From Bryoerythrophyllum caledonicum (Eukaryota; Streptophyta; Bryopsida; Pottiales; Pottiaceae), in the NCBI GenBank assembly GCA_963971425.1, contig OZ020520.1:28613535-28677534 (forward strand): DNA of 64,000 bases, written 5' to 3'. Every line of letters starts with the position of its first letter. The stretch's first letter is position 1. This document shows positions 6,181 through 59,500 of the stretch, in pieces. A model generated the notes under the pieces. The model searched no databases, had not been told where the DNA came from, and saw only the letters and a program-made list of their open reading frames with translations. The translations under genes and the position numbers were made by a program.

Positions 6181-7339
6181 ACAAAACCAATCTACAATGA
6201 GTCCATTTCAAAAATGAAGAGAACTTACAAGCTACACAATAGTTATTGCATCAATTTGGAAATCCATGGACTCGTGTAGTATTCCTCGGTCTTGAACAAT
6301 TGCTGTAATGAACTTCATGCCTCCCTGCACCGGCTTTGCTACTATCAAAGGTACTCTACTGTCATTCATGTTATTTTTTATATGCCCCCCATAATCCACA
6401 ACTACCAAACTATCTTCAAGTAGCGCATTGTACTGAATTACAAAAATGTAAGTATGTTTACAACATGAGCAAGGGTAGTTGTTGTCTTTTGTGATGCTTA
6501 GGATGTAAACACTTTCTGGTCCATCACCTTGGGTAATACCACATATACTCTGGAACCATAAGTGTTGCTCATGGTCGGTGCTAGCTTCTCTTTTGAGCAT
6601 ATCAGACCTATCACGGCCAGGAGGTAATGAAGCTGCATGAGCCCATATGTTGAGATATTTCGTAGCCATGTCCTTGTCCTCATATTGAGGATACTCCCAA
6701 ACAAACATCAATCCTCTTATAAGATCTATCATTTGATCATCGTCCAATTTTTCCTTCAATGCTTTAAAAAGACTTTGAAAACCGTCATGCTCCAGATCCA
6801 TATTCGGTTGCCTTGGTTCTATTACTGCAACAATTTTTGTTTGGAAGACTAGAGGATTGGGGACCATAAGTCCTACATTCTCATCGTAATTGCAGCTACC
6901 ATAACGGACAATGTCTCCTACAGTTAATGTCTTTGGATACTTGAGAGAAGTCCAAGTTGGCACCATCAGTGTTTCCCCATTTCCTCCAACTTAGATCCTT
7001 CTATTTATAATAAATCCATTCGTCTTAGGTTATTCACGCATTCCTTCATGACCATTACAACAACCTTCTCAAGTGTTGTGTCTCTATATGCAGGAGTGAT
7101 ACTAACATTGGGAATAAGGCCAAGTATGCCATATACCCTATCCTTCTCCACACTGCATTTGACTTGAGAGGTGAATAGAAGGGCACCACACATAGTCAAA
7201 TTTGCCTTAGCTACCCATCTGTTAGCAAGATTCTATATCAACCTAAGGCTTTTAAGAGGACCCAAGTGGTCACTAGGCTTCCAATCACTAATCAATACAA
7301 GATTGCTAGCAACCACAATTAGCCGGGCCCAAAATACAG

Positions 7340-7374
7340 CGACCTCAACAAATGAGTCAATGCCCCTATCAGGG
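7340..7374 (-). repeat. Outward-facing copy of the Tc1 terminal sequence (left flank)
   Basis: On the - strand this reads CATTGACTCATTTGTTGAGG followed by GTCGCTGTA. It resembles the Tc1 terminus but points away from the element. It lies inside the HET-related frame and pairs with the outward copy at 8895-8930. Confidence 0.55.
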
Positions 7375-7523
7375 AGTACTAATGAGGGCCAACTCATAAA
7401 GCTTAAGGCGGCTGAAGCCTTAAAAATAATTCTACTGTTGCCTAATGCACTCTTAACACATACCACATGGCGCTTTGCCTAAATAATATCTACATCGTGA
7501 GTTATGATCACAAATGTGCATGT

Positions 7524-8742
7524 ACCCTCATAGACTCATTTTTTGAGGTGGTTTCTCGAGCAACTTCAGATGAGTGTAGAACAGATAGAAACTTGTGTTT
7601 TTTTATGAAGTTTTTTGTGATTTCTCTTATCTTCCTTCTTGTAGAACATATTGTGGAGAATAGGAATTAAGATTGGTATGATGAAGCCAATTTCAGGAGA
7701 CAAAGTGAGAGATATTGTTGCTCTTTTGATGAAAGGTCAAAGTACAAGAGTGGTTGCAAAGTCTTTGGATTTCTCACAAAGTACGGTGAATAGAGTGAGG
7801 AAGAAACATTGTAGTAACTTAGAATTGCCAAAACGAGGTGCTCCAAAGATTCTTACCACTTCAGAGAGACGACGTGCAGTGCGTTTGGTCACAGTTGGAG
7901 GGTTAGAAATGATAGTACAAGCAGCAAAAGTGTTGACAGAGGGTAGAGAAGTGGGTTTTTGTGATAACACTTTGCGGTCTGCTTTGAGAGATGCTGGATT
8001 GAGTGCTTGTGAGAAGATTCCTAAGCCTTGTTTGTCACAGAAAAATGTACGAGAGAAGCTACAATTTGCAAGAATTCATAAAGAGTGGACAATAGAGGAT
8101 TGGAAGAGAGTTGTATTCAGTGATGAAACAAAGATAAATCATTTCAATTCAGATGGGAGGACTTCGTGTTGGGTTAATGACAAAAAAAGCTTGCCTGATC
8201 GTGCGGTGAAGCAAACAGTGAAGCATGGTGGAGGGTTTTTGATGCTATGGAGTTGTATGACAACAAGAGGTCTAGGTGATTTACAAAAGGTGGATGGGCG
8301 TTTAAATGCGAAGGACTATATTTCAATCTTGCATGGAGATTTGTACTTGAGTTTAGAGAGATTAGGATACTTGAACATCAATAACGTCATTTTCCAGCAT
8401 GATAATGCTTCCATACATAAAGCAAAGATTGTTCAGAAATGGTTCTTAGAGCAACCATTCTCTGTTTTAGAGTGGCCAGCTCAATCCCCAGACCTAAATC
8501 CCATAGAACATGTTTGGGCAATCCTCAAACATCATTTGAATTCCTATCCAACTCCTCCTATAGGTCTTTTGCAATTATGGGAGTGTGTGGAGGAGAGTTA
8601 TATGACGATCACTACAGAGCAATGTGAGAGATTGTATGCTAGCATGCCAGATTGAATTGCAGTTGTTTTGGCTGCTTGTTGAAAGTGGACAAGATTTTGA
8701 CCACTCTGTGTATAACGCCTCAATAAATGAGTCTATGTACAT
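7524..8742 (+). mobile_element. Tc1-like DNA transposon, about 1.2 kb
   Basis: Inverted termini match for about 25 bp: CATAGACTCATTTTTTGAGG (7529-7548) against the reverse complement of 8717-8736, each near a TA dinucleotide as expected for Tc1/mariner insertions. The element carries one transposase gene in the centre and little else. It lies inside the HET-domain gene and runs opposite to it. The exact tips are uncertain by a few bases because the left tip has four extra bases relative to the right. Confidence 0.75.
7678..8655 (+). CDS. Tc1-like DD34E transposase, apparently intact
   Basis: The product cuts and pastes its own element at TA sites. The frame encodes 325 residues from the tandem ATG at 7678/7681; an in-frame ATG at 7651 lies just after a possible splice acceptor and is less likely. 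An N-terminal helix-turn-helix region (STRVVAKSLDFSQSTVNRV) precedes the catalytic core. The triad is visible as VVFSDET, FQHDNAS and SPDLNPIEHVW, with 34 residues between the second Asp and the Glu, the spacing of Tc1 families common in animals and fungi; plant mariner-like elements typically have DD39D. The length matches the family (about 340 residues) and no stop or frameshift is seen. It could be recently active, or co-transferred with the surrounding HET DNA. Confidence 0.9.
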   Translation: MMKPISGDKVRDIVALLMKGQSTRVVAKSLDFSQSTVNRVRKKHCSNLELPKRGAPKILTTSERRRAVRLVTVGGLEMIVQAAKVLTEGREVGFCDNTLRSALRDAGLSACEKIPKPCLSQKNVREKLQFARIHKEWTIEDWKRVVFSDETKINHFNSDGRTSCWVNDKKSLPDRAVKQTVKHGGGFLMLWSCMTTRGLGDLQKVDGRLNAKDYISILHGDLYLSLERLGYLNINNVIFQHDNASIHKAKIVQKWFLEQPFSVLEWPAQSPDLNPIEHVWAILKHHLNSYPTPPIGLLQLWECVEESYMTITTEQCERLYASMPD

Positions 8743-8894
8743 AGTTAACTTTGGCACTATGTATTTTTTTTACCTAGTGGCAAATTTTTTTCAATTTTCT
8801 TGAGGTTGTCAGTTACTTCATGCTCTCAAACTTTCATGTTCAAAATTTATTGCTTTGATTCTTCATACTCTCTACATTGTTACTTTTCTAAATC

Positions 8895-8930
8895 AAATAC
8901 CCTCATAGATTCATTTCTTGAAGTCGCTGT
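8895..8930 (+). repeat. Outward-facing copy of the Tc1 terminal sequence (right flank)
   Basis: This reads TACCCTCATAGATTCATTTC followed by TTGAAGTCGCTGTA, beginning with TA plus the same CCCTCATAGA start as the left Tc1 end at 7523. It matches the reverse complement of 7340-7374 at about 24 of 28 positions. HET similarity resumes directly after it. Confidence 0.55.
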
Positions 8931-9649
8931 ACATCACAGTCTTTCAACCCAGACACATCATACACCTTGTCTTTGTCAACAAGAGCCATGTATATCCTCG
9001 AAGCTAATGCACTTTCTTGCACTGTCCATAGCCGCTTAGACCACTCATCTTGTCCCAATTCTAAATACTTGTCTACATCCACCGCCCAATAATCATCAGT
9101 CACCCTTTCATCAATTGATGGCATATTCGGACAACCCTGGAAGTACAATATTGTGGACGCCATCTCATCTAGGAGCTTTGAGCGTGTGCTATCCAGCAAG
9201 ACCACCGTTGCTCTAGTCTCTTTATAGACATAACCCATTTTTATGACTTCCCTCGACTTCTCATCATCATCATCTTGGTTGATACAAATGTTGTCCAACC
9301 ACAAATTTTGCCACCCACAACTTTCAGCAATGCTCAAGAGGCGTTGCATCTTCTCCGGCTTGCTTATCTTGATCCGATGACATGCACCTTACACATTCTC
9401 TACCTCGTATTGTGCATCGCCCCATACATACGACACTGCCACCACATCACCAATAGCTACACCAAAAGTACCCACTTCGTACACGCTAAGACTAGTGTTC
9501 ATCTCCATACCTCCTACCTTGACAAAGCCCCATGGTTGTTTTTCAAAGTCTACTCGCAAGAATTTAGACATCTTGTATACGAACTGGATGCACGCAACCC
9601 TAATTGGTAGATTACGAAAGTTGTACATTTACAAGCTAGTATCCTTAGT

Positions 9650-10974: not shown

Positions 10975-11940
10975 AAAGAAATTCAACCCTCCTCGATTAT
11001 TTTGGGTGGAACCTAGGCAATCAACGCATTAGAATTTTGTGGAAAGAGTAGTGTGGAGAACAATTAATGAAATGCACCACAATAAATTCAAGAAGTTTTA
11101 GAGGATGGATTTTGGTGCTTTCAAAAATTTGTTGAACATGTTGACTCCATTTTAAAGAAGTATGTGTGTCAATCAAGTGGGGCCACAAATGGAAATTAAA
11201 AAAATAGTGGCATGTGTAATTTATAGATTTGCACATGGTCATAGTCCAGAACACATGGCAGATCGATTTAAGATTGGAGCTTCAATCATTAGAAAGTATG
11301 TTGACATTGTTTGTGATATACTTACTCATAAAGACAAACTATTTAGTCATTGCATTAGCATTCCAGGTGAAGCCCGTCTTCAAAGCATCATCTTAGATTT
11401 CAAAGAGTTGACAAGATTGTCCAATATATGTGGAGCAATTGATGGTACACACATACCATTAACAGAAAATCCAAGTAGAAGAGTAACATTGGCGGCTAGT
11501 GATTTTTTCAATAGAAAAAAATTCCATTCTATTATATTGCAAGGGGTTTGTGATTCACGTAAGATCTTTTGGAATGTATGTGCCGGTCAACCTGGAGGAG
11601 TGCATGATGGTGGACAATTCAAAGTATCCAACTTGTACAAGGGTTTGAGGAAGCAAAAGATTTTATAAGAACCTCTGGTTTTGATTAGAGGTATCATGTG
11701 TACTCCATACTTGATTGGAGATGTTGTTTATCTCATTCGCACGTATTTAATGAAAAATTGGAAGGCTCCCAATGATATACACAAGAAAAGATTTGACAAG
11801 TCGATGAACTCATGAAGAGTTGTAATTGAGCAAGCGTTTGGGACATTGAAGAATAGATGGAGAATTCTAAATTTTTTTAATTCTAGAGTTGATAGAGCCG
11901 CTAGGATTATAGTAGCTTGTCGTTGGTTATACAATTATTG
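10975..11940 (+). pseudogene. PIF/Harbinger transposase, decayed
   Basis: A single reading frame runs through the whole stretch with about five in-frame stops and no frameshift. Harbinger landmarks are clear: a helical DNA-binding-like region (ADRFKIGASIIRKYVDIV), then the first catalytic Asp in GAIDGTHIPL, the second in GQPGGVHDGG, and the Glu in VVIEQAFGTLKNRWRI. The encoded enzyme would excise and insert the element at three-base TWA targets together with a Myb-like partner. That partner gene lies just downstream on the opposite strand, tail to tail, the usual two-gene layout. The copy cannot make a full-length enzyme as it stands. I could not locate its terminal inverted repeats. Confidence 0.85.
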
Positions 11941-16666: not shown

Positions 16667-19600
16667 ATGGCGATGGCGGTTGCAGCGGTGGGCTCGGCCG
16701 TTGCAATGGCGGGCACGCTGGGCCAGACGCCCCGCCACAGCCCTGCTGGTGCTGCTGGGGCGCCACTGCGGCTCTTCTCCTCCTCCAAGCCCTTCGCGGT
16801 AAAGCCCCGCGCTCGCCCCGCCCTCAAGGTGTGTACACTCCTCTCTAAACCCTACGGATAAGGTGTTTAGGGAGGTGCGGAACCTAAGTTTAAGTCACGA
16901 GGATAAGGTATTTTGTTGAATTCAGGTGGTGAAGATTTTGATACCGGTTTTGAGAGTTTTGAAGCAACTTGTGTTCATGGAAACCCTAATTTTTTTGGAT
17001 AAGGTATTTAGAACTGGGATTGAATTTCAGAGGTTGTGGCGAAGGTTTTGACACCGAGATTGCAATTCCGGTTGCAGCAAGGTTAGAGTGAGGTTTAATG
17101 GGGTTGAATTGGGGTGGACTACTCAGCTGGGCACCAGGGCAGCAGTCGCGGGAGCTGTGAAGGCAGAGGAATCGGGGTCGGTGAGGGATCAGGCGGAGGC
17201 GTCGTTCTCGCTCTCCAAGGACCTCGCGGGGCCTGACTTCTTCCTGCTGGACCTCGCAGAGAAGCTGGAGAATGCCGTCGTCGACGCGGACCAGGAGCCG
17301 ACTCTGGGCCGCCTCGCCCTGGCGGACCTCCGGGACCGGTCCGCCGAGAAGGCCTTGAACTCCCGGTGGCCTACCAACAAGGACGAAGCCTACCGGTTCA
17401 CGGACGTGAGGTTCCTCAAGAATCTAGATATCTCCCCCACGCCCACTCACTCTGGGACCTCACCGGACTTTGCATCAGGTCGTCATGGTTTCTGTGGTTT
17501 CCGAAGCATGCAGGTTTCACTACTTTGTTCATAACATTTAGTTATGTATGTAGTTACTGCCCGGTCGTCAATTTGTGTTGTTCGTCTTCTTATCAGTAGT
17601 GGTGGTTGTAGTACTAGAGCTCCTGAGGGTGCTGGTTTCTGTTGCTTTCTGTGGTTTACGAAGCATAGAGTTGTCAATAGGCGACTATTTCTAGGTATGC
17701 ACAAGGTTACCGCTCGGTCTTCATTTGTGTTGCGCATCTTCTTATTATAGGTGCACACCTTTGGTGATTCAAGCACATGAGATTGCTAACATCTGTCGCG
17801 TGGGTGGCAGGTCTAGGTCTGGACGAAACGGATACATTTCGCCTCGTGTTCGTGGACGGCGTGATCTCGGAGTCTCTCTCGAAGGTGGACGGCCTCGCCG
17901 ACGGGGCGTACATCGGAAGCATCTGCAAGATATCCGCGGAAAGCTCCCCGTCCCACGCACTCCAGCATCTGGGCAAGCCCGCAGCCGGAACCACAGAGGA
18001 TCTCTTCACATTTCTGAACGGACTAGGGGTGCAGGACGCGGGGGTAGTGTTTGCGCCCAAGGGTGTCCACATAACCAAGCCTGTCCATGTGGTGTACTAC
18101 TCCACCGGAAGGGGAGGGTCCAAGCACGGGGAGGAAGGCGGCGGCACTGCCATCTCGTTGGCCAGCCCTCGGTTGCTGGTCGTGGCAGAAACTGGTGCCA
18201 GAGTGGAGATCATCGAGCAGTTCGTTGGAGCGCCGGAGCAGACGTACTGGACCAACACGGTTTGTGAAATCCATGTCGCGGCCAGAGCTCAAGTGTCCCA
18301 TAGCTGCTCTCAGGAGCAAGATCGCAACTCTGTGCACATCAAACAGACCCATGTATCTCAGGTAACAAGTTTGGCACAATATGAGATAAAGTCACCCAAA
18401 GTTTCGATAAGTTACCCCTCTTTTAATATATAATTCTACACTTTCCTCACTCTGAATAATTTTTAGATCAAAGGAAGAGCTCGGTAGGCTCAAGTTGAGG
18501 TCATTTAGCCGTTTTTCCTCGCTCTCAAAGAGTTCGCATGGCACACCATAAAATATTAGCCACCTTTTCCTCCTTTGAGCTGATTACTTGACAGCTATTT
18601 AGAGGCGATTGTAATTCAATTCAAAGACAGAAGAAAGAGAGGGTATTGTTACAACAAACTTAAATGCAACTGGTTTATTGTTACGATTTCAAGACTCTAT
18701 CTGTATCGATGCAAATCATAGAAAAGCTGCTGAAAACTGGAGGCACTAATTGCAGGGGGAGAACAGCACGTATAAGCTTGTGGAGGCTGGGATCGGCGGA
18801 CGGTTGAGCAGGCACAATCTGCAAGTGATTCAGTTGGGCCCTGAGACGCAGACTGAATTCTCAACGTTCTCACTGTCCAGCCAGCGACAGGTGCAGGATC
18901 TGCACAGCCGACTGGTCCTCAACCATCCGCGGGGGATCAGTCGCCAGCTGCACAAGTGTATTGTGACCCACAGATCGGGCCAAGCCGTCTTCGATGGTAA
19001 TGTCAAAGTGAACAGGTAACAAACTATCCTTTGCACTTCACTTGAGTTTGGATGCTAATTAAGGTAGACGATGGTACCTTTGTCTTAAAATGTACTTATG
19101 TCTACCACTGTTCACTGTATTGATAGTGAAGCACATGCATGTCAAGTTCTGATTGGGTGTTCGTTTTCAAGCAATTGCCAGTCGACGATTGCATGTGAAT
19201 TTTCAATTAGTGTAGAAACTCGAATTACTTTAGTATTCAGAGAACGGTGCTACCGTCTTAGGTCCTAATCTAGTTACCTTGTGCTTGATTGTGGACTGGA
19301 ACATTAAGTGACTGGTAGATGGTGTGTTAAGTAAGGGTCTCCGTCAACTAAATTTGTAGGAAAATCATAATATGTCATATTTAAAACCTGGAAACGGATT
19401 TGAGTTCTCTCTGTAGATTTCTCTGTGATTTTAGTGTGATGGCCTCCACCTTACCTTTGAGAACTGTTACAGGTTGGCACAGCAAACAGATGCGGGGCAG
19501 TTGAGCCGGAGTTTACTGCTGGCACAAGGAGCGACGGTGAACGTGAAGCCCAACTTGCAGATCATTGCGGATGATGTGAAGTGCACACACGGAGCTGCAA

Positions 19601-19809
19601 TCTCAGATTTGGAGGAGGATCAGTTGTTTTACTTCCAAGCTCGGGGGATTGACGCCCTGACAGCTCGAAGTGCTCTAGTCTTCTCATTTGCAGCTGATGT
19701 TTTGCAGTCGCTCGGAAACGATAGCTTGCGAAAGAGACTTGAAGGTCTTGTGAAATCATCTCTGGCATCGGATGGGGTTGTTAATCCTAGTGTGCCTGTC
19801 AGTTTGTAA
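16667..19809 (+). CDS. SUFD: Chloroplast SufD (ABCI7-like) Fe-S cluster assembly scaffold subunit
   Basis: SufD joins SufB and the SufC ATPase in the SUFBCD scaffold that builds Fe-S clusters in plastids. Five exons keep frame: 16,667-16,828, 17,127-17,478, 17,811-18,361, 18,756-19,015 and 19,473-19,809, giving about 553 residues, somewhat longer than the roughly 475 of Arabidopsis. The first 54 residues (MAMAVAAVGSAVAMAG..., Ser/Ala/Arg-rich) look like a transit peptide. The body shows the SufB/SufD beta-helix family: EAYRFTDVRFLKN, FVDGV, AGIGGRLSRHNLQ, then AQQTDAGQLSRSLLL, VNVKPNLQIIADDVKC and FYFQARGID. The exon 2 acceptor is the least certain join. Intron 2 contains an internal duplication and intron 4 a family C MITE. 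Identification is firm. Confidence 0.95.
17489..17747 (+). repeat. Internal direct duplication in SufD intron 2
   Basis: TTCTGTGGTTTCCGAAGCAT near 17,490 recurs as TTCTGTGGTTTACGAAGCAT near 17,650. The downstream blocks ending TTTGTGTTG(T/C)..TCTTCTTAT recur at the same spacing of about 160 bp. Two thirds of this intron is therefore one diverged tandem duplication. Confidence 0.7.
19102..19253 (-). mobile_element. Family C MITE inside SufD intron 4 (shortened copy)
   Basis: About 150 bp match the copies at 32,713-32,917 and 48,588-48,791, sharing GCACATGCATG.CAAGTTCTG, GATTGGGTGTTC and AATTTTCAATTAGTGTAG. It lacks about 50 bp of the longer copies. Orientation is opposite to the 32.7-kb copy. 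Confidence 0.75.
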
Positions 19810-56505: not shown

Positions 56506-59500
56506 ATGGGAAAGGATTCGGTGACTATGAAGCTGTTCACGGCGAGCGAGATGGAGAGCCGAGCGCCGTTGTCGCCGATAGAAGTTCGGCCTCGGAACAA
56601 GCCAGCAGGCGCAGCGGCGTCGCCTCAACCGAACCACGTTCATCCTCCCCCCGGGAGCAGCTTGAAGAAGAACTCTGCCTTTAGCAGCAACCAGCAAATG
56701 CCTCCATCGTCTCTTTCCGAAAACAACATCCAGAGCGCGGAATACGGAGAGAACATTGCTTTTTTCGCCCCGGCGTCGCCGGAGCACAAGTTCGCCGTTC
56801 CGGCGTCTCCCAAGGGCTCCAACAGGAGGAGGTTCGGGTGGAGTAACATCCGGCAGCAGCATGAGGAGCCTCTCTCTGGTAACTTGACTCGCGGCCTCCT
56901 ACTTTCTTGCCTCGCGTCTTCTGCTTGCGCTTCATCTCCTCATCGTCCTCCCAAGTCCCGATCACGTCAGTCCTTCAAGCCACGCTGTAGAATATTCGTA
57001 CCACGCATCCAACGTTCCGAGGAAAGCCATAGTTCAGTCTCGTAGAGAGAGACGCCTGCGAGTTGTCTCTTTGATACTCGTGGTGACAATTCTACGAAAG
57101 GTTTGTGCCTGCTCTAGCGATGTCGAGACGAGGGAGACGGATTGGATTTCGGAGTCGAGTGTTTGCCGAAGATTGTGATAGGGGAGACCTGTTTAGATGA
57201 GCGTTTGTGGATCTAAGATCGGGCGGCTCCACGCTTGCCAGTTGCGTTTGCTGCTCAGCTGTGAGCGTCCGGACTCTCCGTGTCGCGTACCCCGAATTTC
57301 AGGAGCCTTTTGAGATTTGTTTTGAGGCAGAAAGCCTTGTTTCGCGTTACCGGTGGCAGTCCGGTTCGCTCATTGCGAATTCCTGGCGGGTTGCAGTGCG
57401 CGAGAGGGAGAGGGAGAGAGATAGAGAGCCGTGAATGTAGTTTAGAGTCGGAGAGATTCTGATTTCTTCAGTCCGGTGATTCTCGTCACTGTTTGGCGGT
57501 GATGGTTTCTTTTTGTTGTTCTCGCTCCTGGAGCTTTCAGGATCGAATGCTCTCAGTTCCGGAGATGTTTCAGTAGGTTCGTGTGAGCTATGGTTGGAGG
57601 ATTCCCAACTGTTTCCTCAACAGATCCTTGAGGTAGAGAGGGATTTGGTTAGTATGACAATCCTAGGTAAGAGTACCAGGAGTTTCAAGTACAATGGGAA
57701 TACATTTCCAGGTAAGGCGCTTCTCATTTGCCGCACTTACGCTTGGTTTCGGACCCTCTGGACACTATTGATAGTTCCTAGAGCCTGGTAACGAGAATGG
57801 GACGTTGAGAGGATCGACAGCACTGGTAATTTTTATGAGGATGGGAAGTGACTAGAATTTAGGAGGAAGCTGAAACGCGGGGTCCTCATTCATCTTTTGT
57901 ACTTATGAGAGTCTTCAAATTTGGTCAGGTTCTACTGGGCTGAGGCCGCCCTCAGTTATGGCTGCTGGCTCGCCCAAGGAACAATCTCGGGATGTGTTAG
58001 ACCCCAACAACCAATTTTCAGATACGTCGTCTTCGTCGTCGTCCACCTGCTCAGATCTCAGCATTCCATCATCGAGCAGCAGCCTCTACTCAGGGTATAC
58101 AACATCCAAGATAGGCTCCGACACTGAGTCTGCGTCGAGCACTCCGAGGACAACTCCGAGCAAGAATATCCCTCGGCCAGGGAAGCCTGGATCGTCTGGG
58201 AGACGAAGCTTGGGAAACTCAAATTCAATGAAAAGTTCTTTTCAAAATGTAGCGTCTTTTGAGTTGCAAGAAGACCCAGACTTTTGGAACGATCACAATG
58301 TACAGGTGTGGCCTCGATGCAAGTGCAAGTTGTTAGAACACCGGCAGTGTGGATGCTCACCAGTTTTCGAATATGTATCAGTGGTGTTAGAGTTTATGAG
58401 CGAGAATTGTGATCATGTGCAGGTCCTAGTTCGCACACGTCCCGTAAGCAACTCAGAGGCATCAGCGGCGGGCTTCACTAGGTGTATTAGACAAGATGGC
58501 CCTCACACGATTACCTGGCTGGGCCAACCGGAGACTCGTTTCACATTCGACCATGTCGCTGGCGAGCCTATTTCGCAGGTACACAAACAGGCCTTAATCT
58601 GGATGATCGGGGCATCCGAAACCCTATTCTGGATCGTTCTGACGACGGGACTTGTTCGTGACGCAGGAAGATCTTTTCAGGGTTGCTGGAACTCCGATGG
58701 TGGAGAATTGTATGCGAGGCTACAATAGTAGCATGTTTGCCTATGGCCAAACTGGGAGTGGCAAGACGCACACAATGCTTGGAGACATCGATGATCTTGC
58801 CTACCAACCAAGCTACCAGCGTGGGATAACTCCTCGAATTTTTGAATACTTGTTTGCCAGGATCCAACAAGTGAGTTCGATTAACGAAATGACTGACTGA
58901 CTGGATCTGATTTCAATTATTCCTCAACCCTGTCTCGTCCATTGTATTTAATTGAATGAATCTATCGTGTAATTGAAGGATGACAACCTCTTTGCTGTTA
59001 TTGATGGTAAACCCATTCTGGACTCTCCAGGAGGAGCAACTTCGGGAGCAAGAGCAGTTGAGATTTGTCTGCAAGTGCTCATTTCTCGAGATTTATAATG
59101 AGAATATCACGGATTTGCTGGACCCATCGTCCACTAACTTGCAGGTACGTTTTAGTGCACTTGATCGTTTCTGTGAAATAAGGCGATTTTGTTGCTTCCT
59201 GTATGTTGCAAGTGTATGCGAAATGATTTTCTCTCCTTGTCCACAGATTCGAGAAGATGCGAAGACTGGAGTTTATGTCGAGAATTTGAAAGAGGTTGAA
59301 GTCAAAAGTGTGCAGGATGTCGTTCAGCTACTTATCCAAGTACATTTCCCTCACTATGATAATCGTTTCCTGGAATTTAATCGATTTTAACAGTTCCTTC
59401 GCTGGTGAAGTCATCTCACATGGCTTGTCTGTCGCTTCGATTTTCAGGGAGCTTGCAACAGGAAAGTTGCGGCAACAAACATGAACAGAGAAAGTAGTAG

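Follow-up and report, generated by a model that had tools for sequence, protein, structure and literature searches.

The occurrence of HET domains in bryophytes has been on record since 2014 (PMC4986451), and the HET genes of Physcomitrium patens, whose form is in one place described as truncated, are attributed to a fungal origin by PMC11228847 and PMC7911284, in the available parts of these papers, with reference to Sun et al. 2020. Both the presence of HET domains in bryophytes and a fungal source for them in mosses are thus already published. In fungi, the HET domain is described as a likely relative of the TIR domain that suffices for cell death (available parts of PMC10197012, PMC9153377, PMC4986451 and PMC12881547), while its structure and activity are given as still open in the accessible text of PMC10197012 and a table of PMC12881547 carries the entry "not determined". 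Tc1-like elements of plants have likewise been published, with mention of moss, in the part of PMC4054914 consulted. A literature search that left most subscription journals outside its range gave no description of the HET arrays of the genome treated here, and the words "HET" and "heterokaryon" are absent from the main text of two papers on gene transfer into plants (PMC12448838 and PMC12890914).

The window, that is, the whole stretch of 64,000 nucleotides that was analysed, is part of the 29.1 Mb contig C8 of an assembly of 437 Mb in 894 contigs. With a probability of roughly 0.84, the feature studied in it is a pseudogene of a fungal-type HET family which has expanded within the genome of a plant, very probably a moss, and the window gene is as such an ordinary dead copy of a gene type known from mosses. 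Its parts are as follows.

6232..9571, minus strand: decayed HET gene (pseudogene), delimited by tblastn searches of this region with six intact relatives as queries
9014..9442, minus strand: HET domain PF06985, positions 2-146 of 146, with one TAA inside
9389..9391, minus strand: in-frame stop TAA within the HET domain, codon 61, as compared with intact relatives
7233..7235, minus strand: in-frame stop TAG, as compared with intact relatives
7005..7007, minus strand: in-frame stop TAA past the DRVYGILGL segment, as compared with intact relatives
6966..6972, minus strand: frameshift from frame -1 to frame -3, located by alignment to intact relatives
6235..6966, minus strand: C-terminal region of the C1-type subfamily, 41-54% identical to 14 of the 40 loci compared

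Alignment to the intact relatives places the ATG at 9571, the last codon at 6235-6237 and the stop at 6232-6234, with a length of about 580 codons when the insert is left aside. The earlier note on this DNA had set the limits at 6232 and 9628, of which the former is indeed the end of the gene, whereas 9628 is the end of an open frame and not a start codon. The relative L035 matches the window by tblastn in three pieces, 9571-8942 (70% identity), 7331-6972 (60%) and 6966-6235 (54%). The Pfam HET profile scores 83.1 bits (E 6.9e-21) on 9014-9442 when read across the one TAA, and 68 bits (E 1.5e-18) on the open piece 8903-9388, both above the curated PF06985 cut-off of 22.5 bits; the remaining four gene pieces, searched singly with Pfam, gave no HET match. 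All the minus-strand landmarks on which the HET assignment had been based were recovered, with VAVSYVWGDAQ in the frame 9389-9628, LWLDNICINQDD and LWTVQES both in the frame 8903-9388, and DRVYGILGL in the frame 7005-7232, and the window copy shows both the motif order of the family and the closing Glu of W..QE. The C-terminal region 6235-6966 has 53 matched stretches in its own genome, itself included, and no Pfam family at E 0.1. A continuous reading frame is what the copy lacks, with three stops, one frameshift and one insert along its length. Judged from its sequence, it is a dead, decayed member of the HET family because of these three stops, the frameshift and the transposon, all seen against intact relatives, and the decay asserted previously is in this sense borne out. 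A C1-type copy would thus have lost its frame through the three stops and the frameshift and have been split by a Tc1-like transposon, and it would itself yield no useful product.

The insert consists of the following elements.

7337..8929, plus strand: Tc1-like transposon splitting the HET gene, with the target duplication TA at 7335-7336 and 8930-8931
7335-7362 and 8904-8931: terminal repeats of the transposon, accompanied by inner repeats around 7529-7549 and 8718-8737
7645..8655, plus strand: transposase reading frame of 336 amino acids, with DDE_3, a Tc3-type HTH and DD34E spacing

The interruption by a transposon, as claimed in the earlier note, is real and extends over 7337-8929 with TA on both sides. 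The transposase 7645-8655 matches PF13358 (DDE_3) with E 3.5e-14 and PF01498 with E 4.5e-07, the latter at 30.5 bits, slightly below the cut-off of 31.5, and the spacing of 34 in DD34E was counted by eye on the translation. A DDE transposase, terminal inverted repeats and a TA duplication, by which Tc1-like (DD34E) elements are recognized, are all present, and the ends combine inverted and direct repeats (I1-I3, D1 and D2). The 41 matches listed, for which 40 of the 166 candidates were scored, comprise the element itself, 36 other copies at 93-97% identity (33 of them nearly full length and one split over two entries) and three further copies at 76% identity; the other copies are spread over the large contigs of the same assembly. 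The family has probably been active recently, and the insertion looks young relative to the HET gene, because the transposon copies are 93-97% identical, whereas the protein pieces of the gene are 54-70% identical to L035. A Harbinger-type transposase piece (11156-11668, DDE_Tnp_4, E 4.5e-09) was also observed near the HET pseudogene.

A profile search at E 0.001 found 74 HET places on 12 contigs of the moss genome, and the same search gave matches in none of 14 control genomes. Of these places, 25 fall in the C1 array (C1:6.96-7.53 Mb), 12 in that on C4 (C4:1.27-2.26 Mb) and 5 in that on C2 (C2:38.27-38.41 Mb), the other 32, one of them the window copy, lying outside these stretches. By a count from the table, open frames of at least 550 codons (range 550-793), stop-free in the match, are found in 50 of the 74 places; in the C1 array 17 of 25 places have a frame of this length and 8 have not. 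The view in the earlier note, "ancient transfer followed by decay", is not supported as worded by these numbers, in which the window gene is no lone relic of one ancient transfer, the copy being one of 74 places, 50 of which hold frames of at least 550 codons. Compared with 40 of the other 73 HET places, the window copy falls in the C1-type subfamily, where its closest relatives are the C14 gene L035 and the array on C1. Each intact C1-type relative consists of one open frame of 574-598 codons, with the start MSKFLRV, an N-terminal HET domain (residues 44-186 of L035), DRVYGILGL and then the C-terminal region, for which no Pfam match was found in C1-type proteins. Other moss HET types include L010, L011, L013, L015, L016, L019, L020 and the C4 type.

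The fungal comparators for all HET comparisons came from one fungus. The tree was built with 27 of 30 HET loci taken from it (two partial ones and one duplicate were dropped, three other partial ones kept) and with 39 of 41 moss HETs (two near copies dropped). The closing Glu of W..QE occupies the last Pfam column in 39 of the 41 moss rows and in 25 of the 30 fungal ones, and the rows without it (2 moss, 5 fungal) are partial matches ending before that column. In the tree, whose bootstrap had not settled and whose output carried a long-branch warning, moss and fungal labels change 8 times, and at least 4 of these changes are forced by starred branches; a single clade of all moss domains, tested as 39 moss against 27 fungal HETs, was rejected with AU p 6.8e-53. 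L019 is nested in fungal rows (99/82) and L010 stands beside a fungal row (84/72). A fungal origin of the moss HET family as a whole is supported, since the moss HETs are mixed among the fungal ones, and the family would accordingly be one that entered the moss genome from fungi, with more than one entry into the moss lineage as the simplest reading of the tree. The mixing may alternatively reflect old paralogy with losses, for which the HET homologs that PMC4986451, in the part consulted, describes from green algae and other eukaryotes would speak.

The earlier claim of horizontal transfer is supported for the family, in which moss HETs are mixed among fungal ones; for the window subfamily, a clade on a very long stem, a transfer of whatever donor and age is putative. 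The window copy falls in a clade of 14 moss rows (100/98) that is not nested among fungal rows and whose stem measures 2.34 changes per column in the same output with its warning of long branches. The best fungal matches of the C1 type have E values of 7e-16 to 6e-10, whereas the remaining HET types of the moss reach 1e-54 to 1e-16. The C1 type may have come by descent from a green algal, early streptophyte or other eukaryotic ancestor, with only the other moss HETs taken from fungi; this is unlikely, although it would agree with the very long stem, the missing nesting and the weak fungal matches, and also with the occurrence of HET homologs in stramenopiles, haptophytes, choanoflagellates, green algae and bryophytes that the consulted part of PMC4986451 reports. 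Against descent, the best fungal matches of full-length C1-type proteins extend beyond the Pfam domain, to residues 333-355, the C1-type clade shares its side of the main split (99/97) with 19 of the 27 fungal rows, and a fungal origin of moss HETs is given by Sun et al. 2020, as cited in the available parts of PMC11228847 and PMC7911284. The reading of the window copy as a member of a fungal-type family is preferred here.

Prokaryotic and viral sources of HET were considered as well. A pattern-based scan of the genome_contigs prokaryote collection with a HET alignment as query, a kind of scan that can miss distant relatives, matched 12 stretches, 8 of which encode a relative, and all 8 confirmed relatives come from one MAG labelled Deltaproteobacteria (NYXK01, G001; loci L060-L067 and L068-L097). 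This MAG seems to hold a filamentous fungus, because it contains 41 HET and 25 Fungal_trans places, and a prokaryotic source was rejected, the matches from a MAG with a fungus inside being no evidence for bacterial HETs. Two pattern scans for a viral source gave 24 and 4 pattern matches, with no relative among them.

Base composition was rejected as a clock of the transfers because the GC3 of three native coding pieces in the window (0.43-0.71) and of the 30 fungal HET domains (0.44-0.68, median 0.53) overlaps that of 39 moss HET frames (0.40-0.83). Only L015 (GC3 0.83) and L019 (0.74) lie outside the native range, and both lie outside the range of the comparator fungus as well. The HET gene L015:2410-4455 (G000:C14) has 65% GC within flanks of 38% GC that carry repeats of the same genome on both sides, and in the one flank of L019 examined only about 150 bases recur in the genome. 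L015 is a candidate for a recent transfer.

The array copies were compared for signs of selection. Seven intact C1 copies, taken from 11 loci picked by place after exclusion of two near-identical and two truncated ones, have a pooled dN/dS of 0.98, and the same value was obtained for 9 C4 copies drawn from 10 of that array; in blocks of 60 columns the ratio ranges from 0.15 to 2.09, and the C2 pair has an overall value of 1.50. Among 17 intact pairs, the 10 older ones (dS >0.3) have dN/dS of 0.32-0.68 and the other 7 of 0.78-1.50. In a simple neutral simulation of point mutations, each of five C1 copies had a 3-28% chance of remaining without a stop, one further C1 copy being without a partner of the same length; this retention of frames is a hint of use and not a test, since the copies were preselected as intact, their partners were partly shared and 8 of the 25 C1 places are without a 550-codon frame. 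The dN/dS pattern and the open frames fit fast-evolving yet used genes. The arrays would have grown by tandem duplication, with intact copies diverging at dN/dS near 1 and peaks up to 2.1 while their frames stay open. On a broader and tentative view, with odds distinctly below even, the moss may have captured fungal HETs repeatedly and built from them an immune-like, fast-turning repertoire of tandem-grown arrays, whose discarded copies decay among transposons. If the intact copies are selected for variety, the family would represent a plant takeover of a device by which fungi tell self from non-self and an opportunity to study what the HET domain does, and it is this intact, fast-evolving family that matters more than the single dead gene of the window.

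The same measure bears on whether the window copy might still be in use, with the insert spliced out, as a short HET-only protein or as a source of small RNA. The transposon is located between two coding parts of the gene, and the first piece, compared with five relatives, has dN/dS of 0.38-0.44, lower than in the recent array pairs, so that part of the history of the copy would have passed under constraint. Present use is nevertheless very improbable in view of the in-frame TAA at codon 61 within the HET domain, the two further stops and the frameshift. The window copy is accordingly kept as a pseudogene, set in a chromosomal context for which two genes served as flank controls.

17768-18433 and 19435-19809, plus strand: SufB/D-type gene, its coding sequence divided into two or more pieces (flank control)
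58977..59390, plus strand: kinesin motor coding piece, PF00225 E 9.2e-13 (flank control)

The SufB/D-type gene matches PF01458 (E 2.3e-12 and 8.3e-26) and PF19295 (E 3.6e-08). Ten flank frames compared with Pfam gave 2 SufB/D, 1 kinesin motor and 1 transposase match and 6 without a match, so that, where plant genes with many introns had been announced around the HET gene, two genes only, the SufB/D-type and the kinesin motor gene, can be named. The placing of the HET gene in a plant genome agrees with its position in a chromosome-scale contig beside split eukaryotic genes. The host is read as a land plant, very probably a moss, because the plastid psaA of contig C894 has as its nearest PDB entries 6l35 and 8htu, which we take to be Physcomitrium photosystem I. 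The plastid contigs G000:C894 and G000:C821 (loci L049-L052) differ in psaA/psaB, a 740-residue pair agreeing at 722 positions, and may point to the presence of another plant in the material sequenced or in the assembly. Pieces of psaA/psaB also occur in large nuclear contigs (G000:C14:2993356-3177201, C6:6680849, C1:26525628 and others) and are probably plastid DNA moved to the nucleus. Fungal contamination, with the HET sequence attached to a plant scaffold, is very unlikely, even though HET genes are typical of fungi and the two different plastid contigs leave room for some foreign material, because the copy sits in a contig of 29.1 Mb beside split eukaryotic genes; it is moreover interrupted by a transposon of which the large contigs of the same assembly carry many copies, 73 further places of the family lie on 12 contigs, and the GC-rich L015 is enclosed by repeats of the same genome.

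The function of the family in this multiplied, plant-borne state can be approached by analogy, through which the intact copies would work like fungal HET proteins and may link sensing to local cell death, a TIR-like domain triggering the death in response to non-self or damage perceived by the remaining parts of the protein. The moss might use such a fungal device of non-self recognition against fungi or in the control of its own cell death. The relation of HET to TIR was, in the comparisons of models and profiles made here, not reproduced. The model of the window copy is poor (pLDDT 49.5, pTM 0.52), that of a fungal HET reaches pLDDT 76.3 and pTM 0.78, and neither had a significant PDB match by Foldseek at E 0.001. 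A plant TIR (4c6s) and ThsB chains appeared only in non-significant rows for the poor window model, and neither was among the best 50 rows of the fungal model; a profile search of the PDB at E 10 found no solved HET structure.

Among the described systems, the fungal HET proteins without NLR parts (TOL, PIN-C and HET-6) are likened to the moss copies by their description in the available parts of PMC10197012 and PMC12881547 and through PF06985. The motif order ..S(Y/H).WG, W(I/V/L)D..C(I/V)(N/D)Q, W..(Q/P)E and, later, D(R/K)VY.(I/L)LG is common to fungal and moss HETs, whereas the C1-type protein beyond residues 333-355 is left uncovered in the best matches. With the plant Tc1-like (DD34E) elements of PMC4054914, as far as they are described in the part consulted, the inserted element has in common the DD34E transposase, the TA duplication and a land-plant host, and it differs from them in carrying inverted and direct end repeats together. 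The HET genes in the fungal regions FR1/FR2 of P. patens (PMC11228847 and PMC7911284, in the parts available) are likewise of fungal type, lie in the nuclear genome of a moss and have mobile elements nearby; unlike them, the window copy is dead and stands alone, away from the arrays, and its genome has HET places of several types, 74 in all.
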